Origin: a virus
Length of the DNA: 39,457 nt
Virus record (IMG/VR): IMGVR_UViG_3300050014_000266
Span: 1 to 39,457 of that record
Reading direction: 5' to 3' (one strand)
In this document: positions 27-16,398 of the stretch, in pieces
Position numbering within the stretch: position 1 is the first letter of the stretch
How the letters are laid out: every line of letters begins with the position of its first letter
Position numbers and translations under genes: made by a program
The notes under the pieces: model-generated
Databases searched by the model: none
What the model was told of the DNA's origin: nothing
What the model saw: the letters and a program-made list of their open reading frames with translations, nothing else

Positions 27-626
27 CTACGCCCCCCGCGCCCTGCTCTTCTTGACATAGGCAATGAGGGCATCGATGCCCATGCCCTTTGCGCCGTTCC
101 TCATCGCCAGATGGGTCAGTGTGTGATCGTTGAAGCACAGCGGCACGCACTTAGCCAGCTCAGGCAGCAACTGTTCAACTGTGTGGCAGTGACGCATGTC
201 ACGTTCCTTCGTGTCCATGTCCACATGATGCGCGCATATCAGACGTGAAAAGGCCCGGGACGTCGGCTGCTTCCGCAGTGTCGCTGTTTCCAGCGACTGA
301 CGTGTCTCCCGAACCTCTGCACCAATTCTACCCCGAGAAGCTAGGAATGCAACGGGGTGGATGGACTCGCGCTGCACGATTGGCGCGCATGCGACGCATC
401 GCTTGCGATGACTGTTGCCGAGCACGATACCGCAACGTAGGCAGACCTTAGGCGGCTCGTGTGCCCTGCGTGCTTGCGCCTGCTCCCGTGCCCGTCGTAC
501 GTTTCTCGCCTTAGCGCAGGCGGGCCCACAAGTGAGCGGCCAACGACCCCGCATGAGGCGTGCGCCGCATTCACTGCATTGCCGCATAGCACTCGGCGGG
601 GCTGTGCTACAATCCATGCTACTCAA
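27..626 (-). CDS. Zinc-finger protein with degenerate HNH-like C-terminus
   Basis: About 199 residues. Two CxxC zinc knuckles lie in the first third (CSECG with a later C; CLRCG followed by CVAC), then a basic linker. The C-terminal third has an HHVD motif and a later CVPLC, which resembles a worn HNH nuclease core. I chose the TTG start at 626 because AAGGAGG (634-640) sits seven bases upstream; GTG 647 and ATG 617 are alternatives with worse spacing. The gene is preceded by its own promoter and hairpin leader, shared with two other HNH loci in this window. The zinc pattern is visible; nuclease activity is inference and could be lost. Confidence 0.6.
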   Translation of the reverse strand: MSSMDCSTAPPSAMRQCSECGARLMRGRWPLTCGPACAKARNVRRAREQAQARRAHEPPKVCLRCGIVLGNSHRKRCVACAPIVQRESIHPVAFLASRGRIGAEVRETRQSLETATLRKQPTSRAFSRLICAHHVDMDTKERDMRHCHTVEQLLPELAKCVPLCFNDHTLTHLAMRNGAKGMGIDALIAYVKKSRARGA

Positions 627-3050: not shown

Positions 3051-3416
3051 CTACACCTCGCTCGTGTCGAGTTGTCCGTCGATGTGCAGGCACACCGGCC
3101 GCCTTGGGATCGTCTCCGTGCGGCTCGGCGGCCACGATGCCACCTTGGCGGCGTGGACCCAGCGGCGGCGCTGGAAGCCGACGTACTTGTACCCGCGCTT
3201 GGGGTCGCCAACGATCACGTCGCCCAAGTTTCGTGCCGCCTCGACCACGTCGCGCACGGCCTCACAATCAGCGGAGAAGATGCGCCCGAGCTGACACCAT
3301 TCGCCGCGATGAAGCCGCAGATAGTCGATGACGATGTCGGGGAATGAGGCGTCCCAACGGGCGTTGTATCCCTCGGGCGGCATGTACTTGGCGCCGAACT
3401 CGGGGGTGGCACTCAC
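3051..3416 (-). CDS. Winged-helix-like protein
   Basis: 121 residues. Residues 25-80 (FPDIVIDYLRLHRGEWCQLG, then a second helix and GDVIVGDPKRGYKYVGF) look like a helix-turn-helix with a beta wing. The C-terminal part is basic. The GTG start overlaps the stop of the broken methyltransferase as GTGA. Possibly a small regulator; not assigned to a family. Confidence 0.5.
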   Translation of the reverse strand: MSATPEFGAKYMPPEGYNARWDASFPDIVIDYLRLHRGEWCQLGRIFSADCEAVRDVVEAARNLGDVIVGDPKRGYKYVGFQRRRWVHAAKVASWPPSRTETIPRRPVCLHIDGQLDTSEV

Positions 3417-3532
3417 GTTATAGCCATCTGCATCTGGTCCCGGTGCGGCGCAATCCTACGCTCTGCCATCGCCGCGTACTCGGGGTTTAACTCGACGCCG
3501 ACGAAGTTGCGGCGGTCGCTTCCGTCGCCACC

Positions 3533-3557
3533 TTGTGGTATAATCACATCACCACAA
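3533..3557 (+). promoter_or_regulatory. Promoter of the LAGLIDADG gene with inverted repeat
   Basis: Extended -10 sequence TGGTATAAT (3536-3544), flanked by a perfect 7-base inverted repeat TTGTGGT (3533-3539) and ACCACAA (3551-3557). No good -35 is seen, as is usual for extended -10 promoters. The repeat covers the likely transcription start, so it could be an operator. Confidence 0.55.
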
Positions 3558-3571
3558 TGAAAGGACATGGG

Positions 3572-4072
3572 GTGACTAGGAAAACGGACATCGCGTACAT
3601 CGCCGGGATACTCGACGGCGAGGGGTACATCGGCGTGAAACGAATGACCGTGCGGAAGGACGCTGCGAATCGCAGTTACCATGCGCGAATCCAGGTCCGC
3701 ATGGTTGACGAGCCGGCCATCGCGTTTTTGGCCGAGACGCTGGGCGGTGCCTATTACCAAGAGAAGCCCAGCGCGACTCGCGGACGACCGCTGTACTGCT
3801 ACTCGGCATCCGACGCCTCGGCTGCCGCGATCCTGCGCACCGTGCTGCCGTACCTGCGCGTGAAGCGTGGCGCGGCGGACATCGTGCTTGAGCTTCGCGC
3901 CATGCAGGCGAACGCGGCCAAGCATCGGACGAAGGTCGTCGGCTATCGCAACTTCCCGAACAAGTACGGGACGGCGCGGCAGGTGCCGAACCTTGCGTAC
4001 TCGGACGAGTACATCGCTGGGTGTGAGCGCCTGTGGCTCGCAGCCAAGGCGTTCAATCGCGTCGGCGTCTGA
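3572..4072 (+). CDS. LAGLIDADG homing endonuclease
   Basis: 166 residues, the only convincing plus-strand gene. The single motif IAYIAGILDGEGYIGV at residues 7-22 is a LAGLIDADG helix, with E17 as the metal-binding acid, so the protein should act as a homodimer. A beta-rich region follows (YHARIQVRMVD; RPLYCYSASDASAAAILRTV). I prefer GTG 3572 because AAAGGA lies six bases upstream; ATG 3557 would add five residues. It sits inside a methyltransferase gene on the opposite strand and has its own promoter, as expected of a mobile endonuclease gene that does not depend on host-gene transcription. No intron or intein signature was seen. Confidence 0.85.
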   Translation: MTRKTDIAYIAGILDGEGYIGVKRMTVRKDAANRSYHARIQVRMVDEPAIAFLAETLGGAYYQEKPSATRGRPLYCYSASDASAAAILRTVLPYLRVKRGAADIVLELRAMQANAAKHRTKVVGYRNFPNKYGTARQVPNLAYSDEYIAGCERLWLAAKAFNRVGV

Positions 4073-4158
4073 CGGCGGGCTGGTGACGACGCAGTTGACG
4101 GACCCGGCTTTGAGCGTCGGCAGGATGTCGAAGACGGAGCCGACGACCACGCCGGCGC

Positions 4159-4497
4159 TCACCTGAGCTTCTCCCCACTCATCGCGATCGCGTCTTCAAG
4201 GCAGCGCAGGACAACGTACTCGCCGCCCTCGTTGGCGATCGTCTGCCGGAAACCGTCCTGCCAATCGCTGAGCCGCCCCTTGGCCGTCTTGACCTCGGCA
4301 AAGACGACGCGGCCTTTGCGCACACAAATGAGGTCGCTGATCCCCTTGTGCGCGCCGAGTCCCTGCTGGATGCGGATCACAAACCAGCCGGCGGCCCGCA
4401 GGTAGCCAGCACAGACGCGCAGGATGGCCGTTTCCGGCTGGCGGTGCGCTCCCTTGGCTTGGAGCTTGGCGACTTCGGCCGGGGACAAGGCGCTCAC
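4159..4497 (-). CDS. VRR-NUC domain nuclease
   Basis: 112 residues. QPETAILRVCAGYLRAAGWF then GISDLICVRKGRVVFAEVKT is the VRR-NUC fold of the PD-(D/E)XK superfamily, with D55 and E68-x-K70 as metal site. Such phage proteins are thought to be structure-specific or junction nucleases in replication and recombination. GTG 4497 overlaps the upstream stop as GTGA; the open frame continues upstream but has no ribosome site there. Confidence 0.85.
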   Translation of the reverse strand: MSALSPAEVAKLQAKGAHRQPETAILRVCAGYLRAAGWFVIRIQQGLGAHKGISDLICVRKGRVVFAEVKTAKGRLSDWQDGFRQTIANEGGEYVVLRCLEDAIAMSGEKLR

Positions 4498-5867: not shown

Positions 5868-6665
5868 TCACTTCCTTTCTGATGGGATGGGCGTCACGCA
5901 TACCGGACAGTGTTCGGCGCCGTCGACGAAAGTAAGGAAGGCGCCGCAGTCGGTGCATGACGGTTGCTCTTGCGCTGCTGTTGGAACCGCCCAGTTGTCC
6001 GGCGGGCCGTCGTCCCAATCGTGCCAGCGTTCGCCGTGGATGAATGTTGTCGGCAGCATGATGAAGGCGCGGTCCTGTCCGCGGCCGGCTGCAACGGCCT
6101 TACCCATGAGATCGGCAACGCGCTGCGCCTCCTTCTGCTGCTTGGCAGTCAGATGCTTCCAGGCGGTCGCCGCCTTCTTCTTGTCGGCCTTCTTTGGATA
6201 GGCGGTCCAAAATGCGTCGAATGATGCGTTCGACGGTTCGGCGTCGAACGATGGGTTACTCAAGTCCCCAGACCCATGACAAGACACAAGACAAGACCTG
6301 CCGGGAACGTTTGGTGCTTGTGTGGTGCTAGTACTGTTCTTGTCTGGTGCTGGTATGACACTGGCCGCTTCTTTGACGTGTGGGTTCTGGTGCTTTGCCC
6401 ACTTCGGCACGGCGATGTACGCGCGTCCGTCGTCTTGATAGCGAATGATGAAACCGTGCGCTGAGAGTTCGTTGAGTAGGTCGTCTACATCGCACTCGTC
6501 GTAGGGAAGGCACTCGACCTTGATTCGCTTCGGCCGATCCTCTAAACGCCCTTCCCTGTCGGCGACGCACCATAGGCCGGCGAAGAGGATTCGGGCGAGG
6601 GGTTCGCAGTCGGCAAGAACCTCGTCAAGGAAGAAGCCGGGTTTGATAGTTCGCAGGCGGCTCAT
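5868..6665 (-). CDS. Phage replication initiator-like protein
   Basis: 265 residues. The N-terminus (MSRLRTIKPGFFLDEVLADC, with LARILFAGLWCVADREGRLE next) is typical of phage winged-helix replication proteins of the DnaD or replisome-organiser type. A proline- and threonine-rich linker follows, then FDAFWTAYPKKADKKKAATA at about residue 155, the usual second domain that binds helicase or DNA, and a C-terminal zinc knuckle (CTDCG and CPVC). ATG overlaps the HNH stop (ATGA). It would start replication by loading a host helicase, since no helicase gene is seen here. Confidence 0.7.
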   Translation of the reverse strand: MSRLRTIKPGFFLDEVLADCEPLARILFAGLWCVADREGRLEDRPKRIKVECLPYDECDVDDLLNELSAHGFIIRYQDDGRAYIAVPKWAKHQNPHVKEAASVIPAPDKNSTSTTQAPNVPGRSCLVSCHGSGDLSNPSFDAEPSNASFDAFWTAYPKKADKKKAATAWKHLTAKQQKEAQRVADLMGKAVAAGRGQDRAFIMLPTTFIHGERWHDWDDGPPDNWAVPTAAQEQPSCTDCGAFLTFVDGAEHCPVCVTPIPSERK

Positions 6666-7348
6666 CGCTCGGCCCATAGGCGGCATGAGTTGTTCTTATG
6701 CACCACGTAACACTCATCGTCTCCTGCTGGACGCTTTCGGCAGGCCATTTCGGAGAGTTCTCCAAAACTGTGTTCGCAGGTGCAACAGATGCGGCCCAGT
6801 TTGGTGTTGCGTTTATTCCTTAGTATCCCGGCCATGTAGCGGATCATGGCGTTGGGCTCCGGGCTTTCCCCCGCCCACACGAGTTTCCCGGCCATCGTTG
6901 TGATGGACTTCTCTACGTCGTCCGGCCCGTACTTTATGAGCCACTGCCTAATGGTCCTCTCGGGGAACCAAGTGGCCCCCGTCTCGGTCTCCCACACCTC
7001 GCGCAGGGTTTCGAGCACTCCCGCATATAATTCCGCCTCGGCTTGCTTGGCTAATTGGTATTCGCGGACCTCGGCGATCTCCTGCTGTTGCTGGAGCCAC
7101 GCCATATGGGCGTCAGGAGACGGCCGCACGTCGCCTAAGAGCCTTGGACCCTTCCCGAGGTTGCAGTCGGAGCACGACGTGACTAAGTTCACCATGTCGT
7201 TCTCGCCGCCGTTGACGACGGGGTCGACGTGGTCACAGTGGAGCGTGACGTCGGGGGGGCGCCGCCCGCAGTATTGGCACGTGAACCCGTCGCGCTTGAA
7301 AACCTCGAAACGGATACGCTTGCTGAGGGTCGTGCGGGTGCGGCTCAT
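6662..7348 (-). CDS. HNH endonuclease with long C-terminal domain
   Basis: 228 residues. The HNH core is at residues 10-65: FEVFKRDGFTCQYCGRRPPD, then LHCDHVDPVVNGGENDMVNL and SCSDCNLGKG, so both zinc CxxC pairs and the catalytic histidine are intact. A helical region follows (residues 80-170) and a second cysteine cluster (CCTCEHS, C, C) near the end. ATG overlaps the stop of a 14-codon leader frame, so translation is probably coupled to it. It is the first gene after the leader-hairpin promoter and reads into the replication gene. Confidence 0.85.
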   Translation of the reverse strand: MSRTRTTLSKRIRFEVFKRDGFTCQYCGRRPPDVTLHCDHVDPVVNGGENDMVNLVTSCSDCNLGKGPRLLGDVRPSPDAHMAWLQQQQEIAEVREYQLAKQAEAELYAGVLETLREVWETETGATWFPERTIRQWLIKYGPDDVEKSITTMAGKLVWAGESPEPNAMIRYMAGILRNKRNTKLGRICCTCEHSFGELSEMACRKRPAGDDECYVVHKNNSCRLWAER

Positions 7349-7389
7349 GGAGTTGGCGCGAAGACGCAGCGGGGGGGTATACTACTCAT
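7345..7389 (-). CDS. 14-codon leader peptide before HNH gene
   Basis: ATG 7389 encodes MSSIPPRCVFAPTP and ends with TGA overlapping the HNH start codon (ATGA). The start has the same distance to the leader hairpin as the start of the HNH gene at 16319, so it could be the left-over beginning of a lost HNH gene. Translation would deliver ribosomes to the next start. Confidence 0.4.
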   Translation of the reverse strand: MSSIPPRCVFAPTP

Positions 7390-7491
7390 GCGATCACCTC
7401 TATCCAGGTGGTGGCCATGGCCCCGGGCGCTCACACGTCGCGGGGCCGCTTCTGTCTCCACCATTGTATCACAGGCGAGGGATGCAGTGAA
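7387..7491 (-). promoter_or_regulatory. HNH-associated promoter and two-hairpin leader, copy 2
   Basis: Minus strand: -35-like TTCACT (7486-7491), 17-base spacer, extended -10 TGATACAAT with TACAAT at 7463-7468, then a 29-base hairpin (7419-7447; arms GGCCCCG and CGGGGCC, loop TGTGA), eight bases, a second hairpin (7395-7410; arms CACCT and AGGTG) whose 3' arm holds the GGTG ribosome site, and ATG five bases later. Confidence 0.6.
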
Positions 7492-7496
7492 CGCGC

Positions 7497-7841
7497 TCAT
7501 CCCTTCGCCGCCCTTCCCCGCTCCCGGTGTCGCTGTGCTTGCTGCCGCTTCTGCTCCCGGTAGCGCGAATCCGTCGCATACTTGCGTTCGTATAGGGCGC
7601 GCTGCTGCTCCCGGCGCCGTTCCAGGCGTTCGGAACTGAGTCGGTAGGAGTCGGCTTGCGCTTGCCGGCGGCAGAGACGGCACTGTGCCGCAAACCTGTC
7701 TCTGTCGGCGTGGAAGTAGTCGGCACAGGCGGGTAGCGTGGCGTGGCACTTGCTGCAGGTCCGCTTGCCGAACAGCATCACGCCGATGTCGATCGCGTCG
7801 GCTGAGTAGATTGAGAAGTCGTCGGCGGCGGGGTGAGTCAC
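7497..7841 (-). CDS. Zinc-finger protein resembling an HNH N-terminus without the nuclease
   Basis: 114 residues from GTG 7841 (GTGA overlap). RTCSKCHATLPACADYFHAD then CRLCRRQAQADSYR is the same CxxC-x-LP-x-F-CxxC module that begins the HNH protein at 30638-31330, followed by the same basic helical linker rich in Arg, Glu and Tyr. The protein stops where the HNH domain should begin. Either a truncated HNH relative or a stand-alone DNA-binding protein. Confidence 0.6.
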   Translation of the reverse strand: MTHPAADDFSIYSADAIDIGVMLFGKRTCSKCHATLPACADYFHADRDRFAAQCRLCRRQAQADSYRLSSERLERRREQQRALYERKYATDSRYREQKRQQAQRHRERGRAAKG

Positions 7842-8092
7842 GACGCCACCGCGTAGGCCGCGATCGTCCATGCATCGCCGCCGCACCCGGTTCCGCGGCC
7901 GCCCGACTGCGCCAGGTTGCATTCACCGGAGCGGCCGCAGTTGCCGCAGCAGCGGAAGTCAATGAGGACCGCCCTGGCGCCGCTGCAGACGGGGCACGTG
8001 CCATGGTGTCCGCCGCCGGTCTTGTCGCGCATACGCCCGTCACCGTCGCACTCAGGGCAGGCGATTTTCAGACGAAGGAAACCGTCGCTCAC
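7838..8092 (-). CDS. DnaJ-type zinc-finger protein
   Basis: 84 residues. CPECDGDGRM, CPVCSG and CCGNCGRSGEC repeat the CxxCxGxG pattern of the DnaJ central zinc domain. No J domain. GTG overlaps the upstream stop. Phage early genes often carry such small zinc proteins; a role in binding unfolded protein or nucleic acid is inference. Confidence 0.6.
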   Translation of the reverse strand: MSDGFLRLKIACPECDGDGRMRDKTGGGHHGTCPVCSGARAVLIDFRCCGNCGRSGECNLAQSGGRGTGCGGDAWTIAAYAVAS

Positions 8093-8364
8093 GATGCCAC
8101 CGCCGCTAGGTCGTGCACAATGACCGGCTCGAGGAACGGGTCGCCGTTGAAGCTGCAGAACTGCACGCCGCCGGGTGTGTGCTCGGCGAGTAAGTACTCG
8201 TGGTATGCCTGCACGCTGTCGCGCGGCAGCACCAGTGGCCCGACGCGTCCGCTCGGGTACACGCGCACCGTGACGTAGCCCTTGACGGTGAGCAGCAGGC
8301 GGATGCGCTGGCGGGGATCGACGGTGGACGGGACTTCGCTGATGATCACGACGATGGAGGTCAT
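8089..8364 (-). CDS. Hypothetical protein
   Basis: 91 residues, ATG 8364 with GGGAGG seven bases upstream. Beta-strand-rich start (MTSIVVIISEVPSTVDPRQR) and a PFLEPVIVHDLAAV end. It shares ATGA and GTGA overlaps with its neighbours. No family recognised. Confidence 0.55.
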   Translation of the reverse strand: MTSIVVIISEVPSTVDPRQRIRLLLTVKGYVTVRVYPSGRVGPLVLPRDSVQAYHEYLLAEHTPGGVQFCSFNGDPFLEPVIVHDLAAVAS

Positions 8365-15632: not shown

Positions 15633-16319
15633 TCACAGCATTACGCCCGCGAAGTCCATCGGATGCTGACCCCTCTTGCTCAGATTGCAGTGCTTGCACG
15701 TCACCACGATGTTCTCGGGGCCGTTGCTGCCACCTAGGACAAGCGGGATTACATGGTCAACGTGGTAGTCGTCTCCGACCTTCGCGCGGCACCAGAAGCA
15801 GCGGCCTCGTTGGCGGGCGTACTGTGCGGCCACGTCGGCGGCGGTGTGCTTCCCTGGGGCGTTGTTCTTTCGAGCGTGTCTCGTCCGGCTGTGGGCTGCA
15901 CGCTCGTCGGGATGTTCTTCGCGATATCGACGACCGTACTCGGCGATCTCCTCGCGGTGACTGTTCCGGTATCGAGAAGCGGCTCGCCTCGCGCTTGCGC
16001 TGTGTGCCCATTCGGGATGTAACTTGCGGTACACGCACTGTCGTTTTGCAAGTTCCTCCCCATGGGCGGCTCTGTAGCGCCGACCACGCTCGGTACCGTG
16101 CAGGCGGGTCTCCTCTTGGTGCTCTTCTTGGTACGCGCGGCAGCGGGCAATAAGATGCTCGCGGTGGCTCTCATAGTACGCTCTCGCACGCTCGCGGTTA
16201 GCGGCTCGGCAGGCGACGCAGCGACAGCCTGAGTGGGCGTAGAGGTATAGTGATGGTGACCCGTGGGCGTGCAAGAGGTTGACGCGGACAGACGAGGGAG
16301 GGGTGGTATAATCCGACAT
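15633..16319 (-). CDS. HNH endonuclease with repetitive linker
   Basis: 228 residues. CRCVACRAANRERARAYYES opens a zinc knuckle and a long basic helical linker (residues 45-150, repeated YRxxHxEE-like units), then the nuclease: RCFWCRAKVGDDYHVDHVIP, LGGSNGPENIVVTCKHCN. It is a paralogue of 30638-31330 (both end in VML and share DYHVDH/GYHVDH cores). ATG 16319 is five bases after a hairpin that holds the GGTG ribosome site. It has its own promoter leader and interrupts the late region. Confidence 0.88.
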   Translation of the reverse strand: MSDYTTPPSSVRVNLLHAHGSPSLYLYAHSGCRCVACRAANRERARAYYESHREHLIARCRAYQEEHQEETRLHGTERGRRYRAAHGEELAKRQCVYRKLHPEWAHSASARRAASRYRNSHREEIAEYGRRYREEHPDERAAHSRTRHARKNNAPGKHTAADVAAQYARQRGRCFWCRAKVGDDYHVDHVIPLVLGGSNGPENIVVTCKHCNLSKRGQHPMDFAGVML

Positions 16320-16398
16320 GCGATCACCGTCCGTTCGGTGGTGGCCACGGCCCCGGCGGGTCACACCGCGCGGGGCCACTCTGTACCTCCTCATTGTA
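16319..16398 (-). promoter_or_regulatory. HNH-associated promoter and two-hairpin leader, copy 3
   Basis: Minus strand: extended -10 TGATACAAT with TACAAT at 16393-16398 (no clear -35, which would fall in the upstream gene), ACAGAG, a 29-base hairpin (16349-16377; arms GGCCCCG and CGGGGCC, inner GCGG/CCGC), eight bases, a second hairpin (16325-16340; arms CACCG and CGGTG) and ATG five bases later. Confidence 0.6.

Follow-up and report, generated by a model that had tools for sequence, protein, structure and literature searches.

The stretch of DNA analyzed here, hereafter the window, is the whole of an IMG/VR virus record of 39,457 bases. Three sites on its minus strand share the same layout, as pointed out by the initial annotation: a -10-like box, a hairpin of 29 nt, a second hairpin including the ribosome site, and a start codon. 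The -10-like boxes are TATAGT at 696-691 in copy 1 and TACAAT (within TGATACAAT) at 7468-7463 in copy 2 and at 16398-16393 in copy 3, and the 29-nt hairpins are located at 648-676, 7419-7447, and 16349-16377, respectively. Stems of 7 bp that close a 15-nt loop occur only six times in the 39-kb window, half of them in these copies.

The genes behind the three copies had all been described as HNH-type, which is clear for two of them. Copy 3 precedes an HNH endonuclease gene at 15633-16319 (minus strand, ATG at 16319-16317; PF14279 with E = 1e-9, and also PF01844), and copy 2 precedes another at 6662-7348 (minus strand; PF01844 with E = 1e-12). The start codon of copy 2 is not that of the HNH gene; it opens a 14-codon ORF at 7345-7389 (minus strand, MSSIPPRCVFAPTP up to the stop), and therefore the HNH gene proper begins 41 bases further on. 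Since the TGA of this ORF overlaps the HNH start codon (ATGA), the HNH gene is probably coupled to it in translation, and the ORF itself may either be left over from an earlier gene or serve the coupling. Copy 1 is followed by a zinc-ribbon gene at 27-626 (minus strand, TTG start at 626-624), which gave no match in Pfam and a weak match to an HNH endonuclease PHROG (E = 1e-5).

On the opposite, plus strand, each copy carries another -10 box that was overlooked by the initial annotation: TACAAT at 608-613 (TGCTACAAT), TATACT at 7378-7383 (GGGTATACT), and TATAAT, of the extended type, at 16307-16312 (TGGTATAAT). Downstream of these boxes, antisense RNAs consisting of hairpin A and then hairpin B are predicted at 620-685, 7390-7456, and 16319-16385 (plus strand, predicted ends), in agreement with covariance model hits at 619-688 (56.9 bits), 7387-7459 (58.8 bits), and 16317-16389 (58.2 bits). 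Hairpin B, terminator-like and with a bulged G, corresponds to the 29-nt hairpin above, that is, the first stem of the initial annotation. For all three copies, the fold of the antisense strand is more stable than that of the sense strand (-34.8 versus -28.6 for copy 1, -35.0 versus -27.1 for copy 2, and -40.9 versus -34.9 for copy 3). The T-tracts after hairpin B are weak in these copies (ACTCTGTTC, GCTTCTGTC, and ACTCTGTAC).

Elsewhere in the window, a tRNA-Glu (ctc) gene is located at 2840-2913 on the plus strand, opposite to most genes. An ORF with a LAGLIDADG-like motif (YIAGILDGEGYIGV) at 3533-4072 (plus strand), which gave no match in Pfam, lies antisense within an apparently split methyltransferase frame (3413-4162, minus strand).

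Search for further copies of the module

The same element is carried by many unrelated viruses, and well over 150 further copies from IMG/VR, cultured phages, Actinomycetota, and Chloroflexota were collected for comparison. A pattern drawn from two copies identified three more in other viruses, a looser pattern gave 97 stretches in viral contigs, 84 of which were distinct at the element, and a pattern with a free loop gave at least 120 matches; the corresponding pattern with flank gave only 10 matches in 257 Gb of cellular genomes. The larger set was filtered by pairing and by open-frame length. Left out of the first tally were L094, L116, L125, L139, L158, L074, L106, and L112 as bidirectional terminator-like hairpins, and L080, L084, L086, L098, L102, L128, and L157 for having no clear gene. 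The first five of these, all from prophages of isolates, carry the same bulged hairpin in front of a small membrane protein gene.

A covariance model was built from 48 copies in the antisense orientation, with the promoter box left outside the model; its E-values should be taken as rough. In the window, the model found exactly three places, the module copies (57-59 bits, E = 1e-13), this detection being not independent because they are among the 48 training rows. Scanning of 34 complete virus records gave 51 places, with a maximum of four in one record. Upon reading one by one, 17 viral copies found by the model alone (including L004) all begin at the start codon of an ORF, and the genes behind them are nearly all of HNH, AP2, or NUMOD type, one being antirepressor-like; at four other weak or terminator-like places, no such gene was found. 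The covariance search proposed at the outset thus yielded many copies upstream of HNH genes, with covariation. Among 65 loci collected as relatives of the HNH proteins, only one, L004, has a clear copy (E = 5e-7), indicating that most HNH genes are without the module.

Three cultured-phage regions that hold the nearest HNH proteins gave no module upon scanning with the model. Blastn of two copies against phage records gave nothing beyond short matches attributable to chance, for example with tectivirus ends, and relatives of the terminase gave no useful close phage for comparison. Matches in Microbacterium and Curtobacterium were rejected, being due to the packaging HNH gene beside the module and not to the module itself.

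Structure and covariation

In the alignment of the copies, the element begins with hairpin B, in which 7 bp, a bulged base, and 4 bp carry a loop of six bases, and continues with a short linker and a second hairpin reaching the start codon (hairpin A). Read as the antisense RNA, hairpin B has about 11 bp with one bulged G and a loop of UUNNCG type, and the linker is 3-4 nt long and contains CA. The inner pairs of the hairpins vary and covary across the copies. In the 48-copy alignment, 89% of cells pair versus 74% in shuffles, and the covariation score was 0.42 for the real alignment versus 0.16 for shuffled and 0.06-0.14 for slid ones. The pairs left free by the search pattern are complementary in 79-84 of the 84 raw copies.

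Hairpin B is also conserved in sequence (CCCCG/CGGGG, the bulged G, and the UUNNCG-type loop). In pattern-found copies, this conservation is in some measure set by the search patterns, as in the CCCCG/CGGGG part, and model-found copies are more variable. The conservation exceeds what a plain terminator or antisense RNA needs, and hints at a binding partner or a function in trans. A pseudoknot between the loop of hairpin B and the GUCA linker was considered and rejected, since no covariation was visible by eye. No family of Rfam 15 matched the elements at either gathering or lax thresholds, including HEARO and OMEGA, which were compared on both strands.

Strand of the selected fold

Whatever protein is encoded, the genes open with codons that include a conserved ANNNTA, which reads as a -10 box on the other strand. 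Likewise, the A-rich stretch preceding hairpin B is, on the other strand, a T-rich stretch following it. Because these features suggested an antisense RNA, four tests were made.

The first concerned wobble pairs, since a G.U pair in one strand is an A.C mismatch in the other. For hairpin B, G.U on the antisense strand (A.C on the sense strand) outnumbers the reverse by 37 to 2, or by 20 to 2 after removal of pairs biased by the search pattern, which affects one pair of this hairpin. In hairpin A, touched by no pattern, the ratio was 99 to 19 (p = 3e-14), and by folding, the second test, the antisense strand was the more stable in 139 of 146 copies (p = 3e-24); related copies are not independent events, so that both p-values overstate the significance, but within-sequence controls were near zero. 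Against dinucleotide shuffles, the z-score of hairpin A was -2.5 for the antisense and -0.9 for the sense strand. The sense strand folds as well, with a mean of -28 kcal/mol.

As to promoters, the antisense -10 box (GGTANNNT) is present in 127 of 146 copies, facing the gene start at +6 to +13 of the gene, while control windows deeper in the gene gave 2-5 and shuffles at most 15. Among copies found by the model alone, the box was detected in 17 of 17 viral (controls, 0-1) and 44 of 52 cellular ones (controls, 0-4). In the sequence logo, GG precedes TANNNT; no -35 box was visible over the 146 copies. A sense -10 box, also preceded by GG, was found in 81 of 146 copies versus 14 in shuffles; nearly half of the copies lack it or have it at another position. 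Since it is enriched alongside the antisense box, the promoters appear to be convergent. The promoter that had been placed in front of the HNH genes is thus retained as a trend, and the facing one has to be added. In the fourth test, TTT after hairpin B was present in 67 of 146 copies in the antisense direction and in 1 of 146 in the sense direction.

Judged from these sequence features, the fold under selection is that of the antisense strand, the plus strand in the window. The initial annotation was right that RNA structure is selected, but assigned it to the opposite strand from the one indicated by the wobble pairs, the stability of the fold, the -10 box in the first codons, and the directional T-tract. 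These four taken together support an antisense small RNA much better than a sense leader alone.

Genes and hosts associated with the module

The 138 proteins encoded behind pattern-found copies include, with overlap between families, HNH_3 (68), the homing-endonuclease zinc loop (34), HNH (19), HNH_5 (14), AP2 (6), NUMOD4 (4), endonuclease VII (4), phage integrase (4), resolvase (1), and LAGLIDADG (1). HNH_3 was thus found in 68 of 138 downstream proteins, compared with 2 of 96 ORFs taken from the same loci as controls. In comparison with the control ORFs, the controlled gene encodes a DNA-cutting or DNA-joining enzyme, with exceptions that have no obvious DNA-cutting role, such as the pilus protein CpaB and small zinc-ribbon proteins. 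In L070, the module precedes a gene for a ParB-like/MT-A70 methyltransferase fusion (7168-8328, minus strand), and thus the carriers are not nucleases alone. The control RNA proposed to travel with HNH genes is therefore self-contained, conserved, and mostly in front of such genes, but not restricted to them.

In cellular genomes, the model gave hits in 33 of 396 Actinomycetota (E at most 1e-5, the seed genome counted) and 14 of 301 Chloroflexota (E at most 1e-3, the seed counted). In the phylum of an alphaproteobacterial genome, the single hit among 299 (E at most 1e-5) was the seed genome itself. The module is located at the start codon of five Cas1 genes (PF01867), L245 and L249 in Chloroflexota and L355, L364, and L368 in Actinomycetota (position 1501 onward). 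Other cellular carriers are a DDE transposase gene (L375), four tyrosine integrase genes (L229, L243, L377, and L381), and a serine recombinase gene (L246). For a few cellular copies, no gene begins at the module. Among these, L231, L234, and L236 of Anaerolineae/Chloroflexi are stand-alone copies, two with a consensus TTGACG-N17-TATNNT promoter, and may represent small RNAs of this family encoded on chromosomes.

Among cultured phages, the module is carried by Propionibacterium phages B3, Anatole, and E1, and is therefore directly testable. In phage B3, it was detected with 70.8 bits in front of an HNH gene adjoining the terminase gene. The annotated start of the HNH gene at 505-1260 in this phage (NC_041892, L255), 772, is probably too late, as the module places the start at 505 (GTG).

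Discussion

Each copy is best read, with good confidence, as a compact cis-antisense control module that would block the ribosome site of a gene for a DNA-cutting enzyme. This reading starts from what the sequence itself displays, namely promoter motifs on two strands, the strand of the fold, covariation, a directional T-tract, placement at the start codon, the gene classes, and the host range. From the opposite-strand promoter, which lies within the opening codons of the gene, an RNA of approximately 65-75 nt would be transcribed, beginning at about the start codon. This RNA would fold into hairpin A, whose loop contains or adjoins a sequence complementary to the Shine-Dalgarno site, the CA-containing linker, and hairpin B, and would terminate past hairpin B in the T-rich stretch; start-codon placement, the terminator-like hairpin, and the T-rich tail are what the sequence displays for such a transcript. 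The gene's own promoter would lie just beyond hairpin B, facing it, so that the mRNA leader and the antisense RNA would be complementary over the full length. By pairing with the leader, the antisense RNA would block ribosome loading, perhaps along with RNase III cleavage or promoter interference. The DNA-cutting enzyme would then be held low in a copy number-dependent manner, and be made only when the antisense RNA is limiting. Such repression may serve to limit the toxicity of the endonuclease or integrase, with the cassette still able to home. In addition, the UUNA loops of the predicted antisense RNA, though not every loop, appear to match the YUNR U-turn, which serves fast RNA pairing (PMC4485353).

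The two hairpins could instead act in the mRNA, with stem 2 concealing the ribosome site and thereby limiting or timing translation, as for mobE, segB, and I-TevI. Hairpins of this kind over the ribosome site are indeed employed by T4-type homing endonucleases (PMC2988022), the sense -10 box is enriched, and the sense strand folds. Stem-breaking A.C mismatches are, however, common on this strand and stem-keeping G.U pairs rare, sense hairpin A is barely above shuffles in stability, and both the antisense -10 box and the directional T-tract would be left unexplained. By the G.U/A.C asymmetry and the z-scores, the sense fold over the ribosome site is not the one under selection, making a sense leader alone unlikely. 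The limitation of translation attributed by the initial annotation to stem 2 would then probably be an action of the antisense RNA, the sense hairpin adding at most a second layer. A conserved leader peptide, encoded by the frame ATG...APRRV..RGRG that is open in all three window copies, can virtually be dismissed, because L069, L070, and L071 have no start codon for it, hairpin A pairs covary, and lengths vary.

Two other readings keep the opposing promoter but not the antisense control. If the RNA acted in trans on targets elsewhere, its gene overlapping the start of the mobile gene by chance, hairpin B could be the handle for a protein of the host or phage. The conservation of hairpin B beyond the need for complementarity, again in part fixed by the pattern at CCCCG/CGGGG, and the full promoters of the stand-alone Anaerolineae copies fit this idea, which is nonetheless quite improbable, given the exact placement at start codons of unrelated genes and the free variation of hairpin A, its loop, and the linker between copies, as expected if the own leader is the sole target. 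It is still harder to regard the module as a purely transcriptional device, in which convergent promoters and a terminator insulate the inserted gene by interference and the RNA itself plays no role. The whole module does consist of convergent -10 boxes and a terminator-like hairpin, but a conserved, covarying hairpin A, the bulge, and the loop would not be required, and such a device is very unlikely.

Antisense control of mobile enzymes is known from RNA-OUT of IS10/Tn10, a short antisense RNA whose promoter opposes the transposase gene and which covers the translation start. The module resembles RNA-OUT in the DNA-moving enzyme, the opposing promoter, and the antisense position over the start, and copy number-dependent inhibition is likewise expected here. 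RNA-OUT belongs to one element, whereas the module architecture is common to HNH families, LAGLIDADG, integrases, transposase, and Cas1, and the absence of a match in Rfam speaks against a link by sequence family. HEARO/OMEGA is also a structured RNA beside an HNH-type gene, but the module is much smaller, antisense, and associated also with non-HNH enzymes; together with the Rfam result, this bears out the earlier view that it is not HEARO/OMEGA RNA.

The IS10 transposase is reported to be under Hfq/antisense control (PMC5006887). RNAII of pMV158, a small countertranscript that carries a terminator hairpin, is complementary to the mRNA just upstream of the repB start and inhibits repB translation (PMC4485353). 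The module is similar in its predicted small countertranscript with such a hairpin, but RNAII has a single hairpin and a 5' tail that is single-stranded, while the module has two hairpins and covers the ribosome site itself; the gene class and hosts differ as well. IS200 combines an inverted repeat over the ribosome site in the transposase leader with the antisense transcript art200 (PMC12594629), a combination that the module is predicted to share, with differences in sequence, structure, and details of orientation; art200 is bound by ProQ in Salmonella, and no such link is known for the module. The T4-type genes (mobE, segB, and I-TevI/II/III), also phage homing endonuclease genes, are tightly limited in translation through sense hairpins and late promoters (PMC2988022), but no antisense RNA is described for them, and their leaders are not conserved between endonuclease families.

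A wider proposal, possible but rather doubtful at present, is that one portable antisense module has been captured repeatedly by unrelated DNA-cutting and DNA-joining enzymes (HNH, LAGLIDADG, tyrosine and serine recombinases, DDE transposase, and Cas1) of actinobacteria, Chloroflexota, and their phages, with the bulged UUNNCG-loop hairpin as the handle for an RNA-binding protein. Such a module would restrain genome-editing enzymes in general, placing phages and CRISPR adaptation under the same RNA family. These bacteria are not known to have Hfq or ProQ, and the module offers a handle on an actinobacterial RNA chaperone.

No published description of the module was found in the literature, the coverage of which is incomplete and thus no proof of absence. 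While antisense control of mobile enzymes is of a known kind, a single antisense architecture across endonuclease, recombinase, and Cas1 genes with no relation to one another is, to our knowledge, new, and antisense control of CRISPR adaptation through modules at Cas1 starts would also be new. The module may be used as a genome-wide marker for free-standing homing endonucleases and for the start codons that they truly use, and as a ready, naturally modular repressor part. Self-restraint of homing endonucleases within the carrier phage is known mainly from T4, in which it relies on sense hairpins and promoter timing; the module would be the first structured, transferable control RNA for this class of enzymes.
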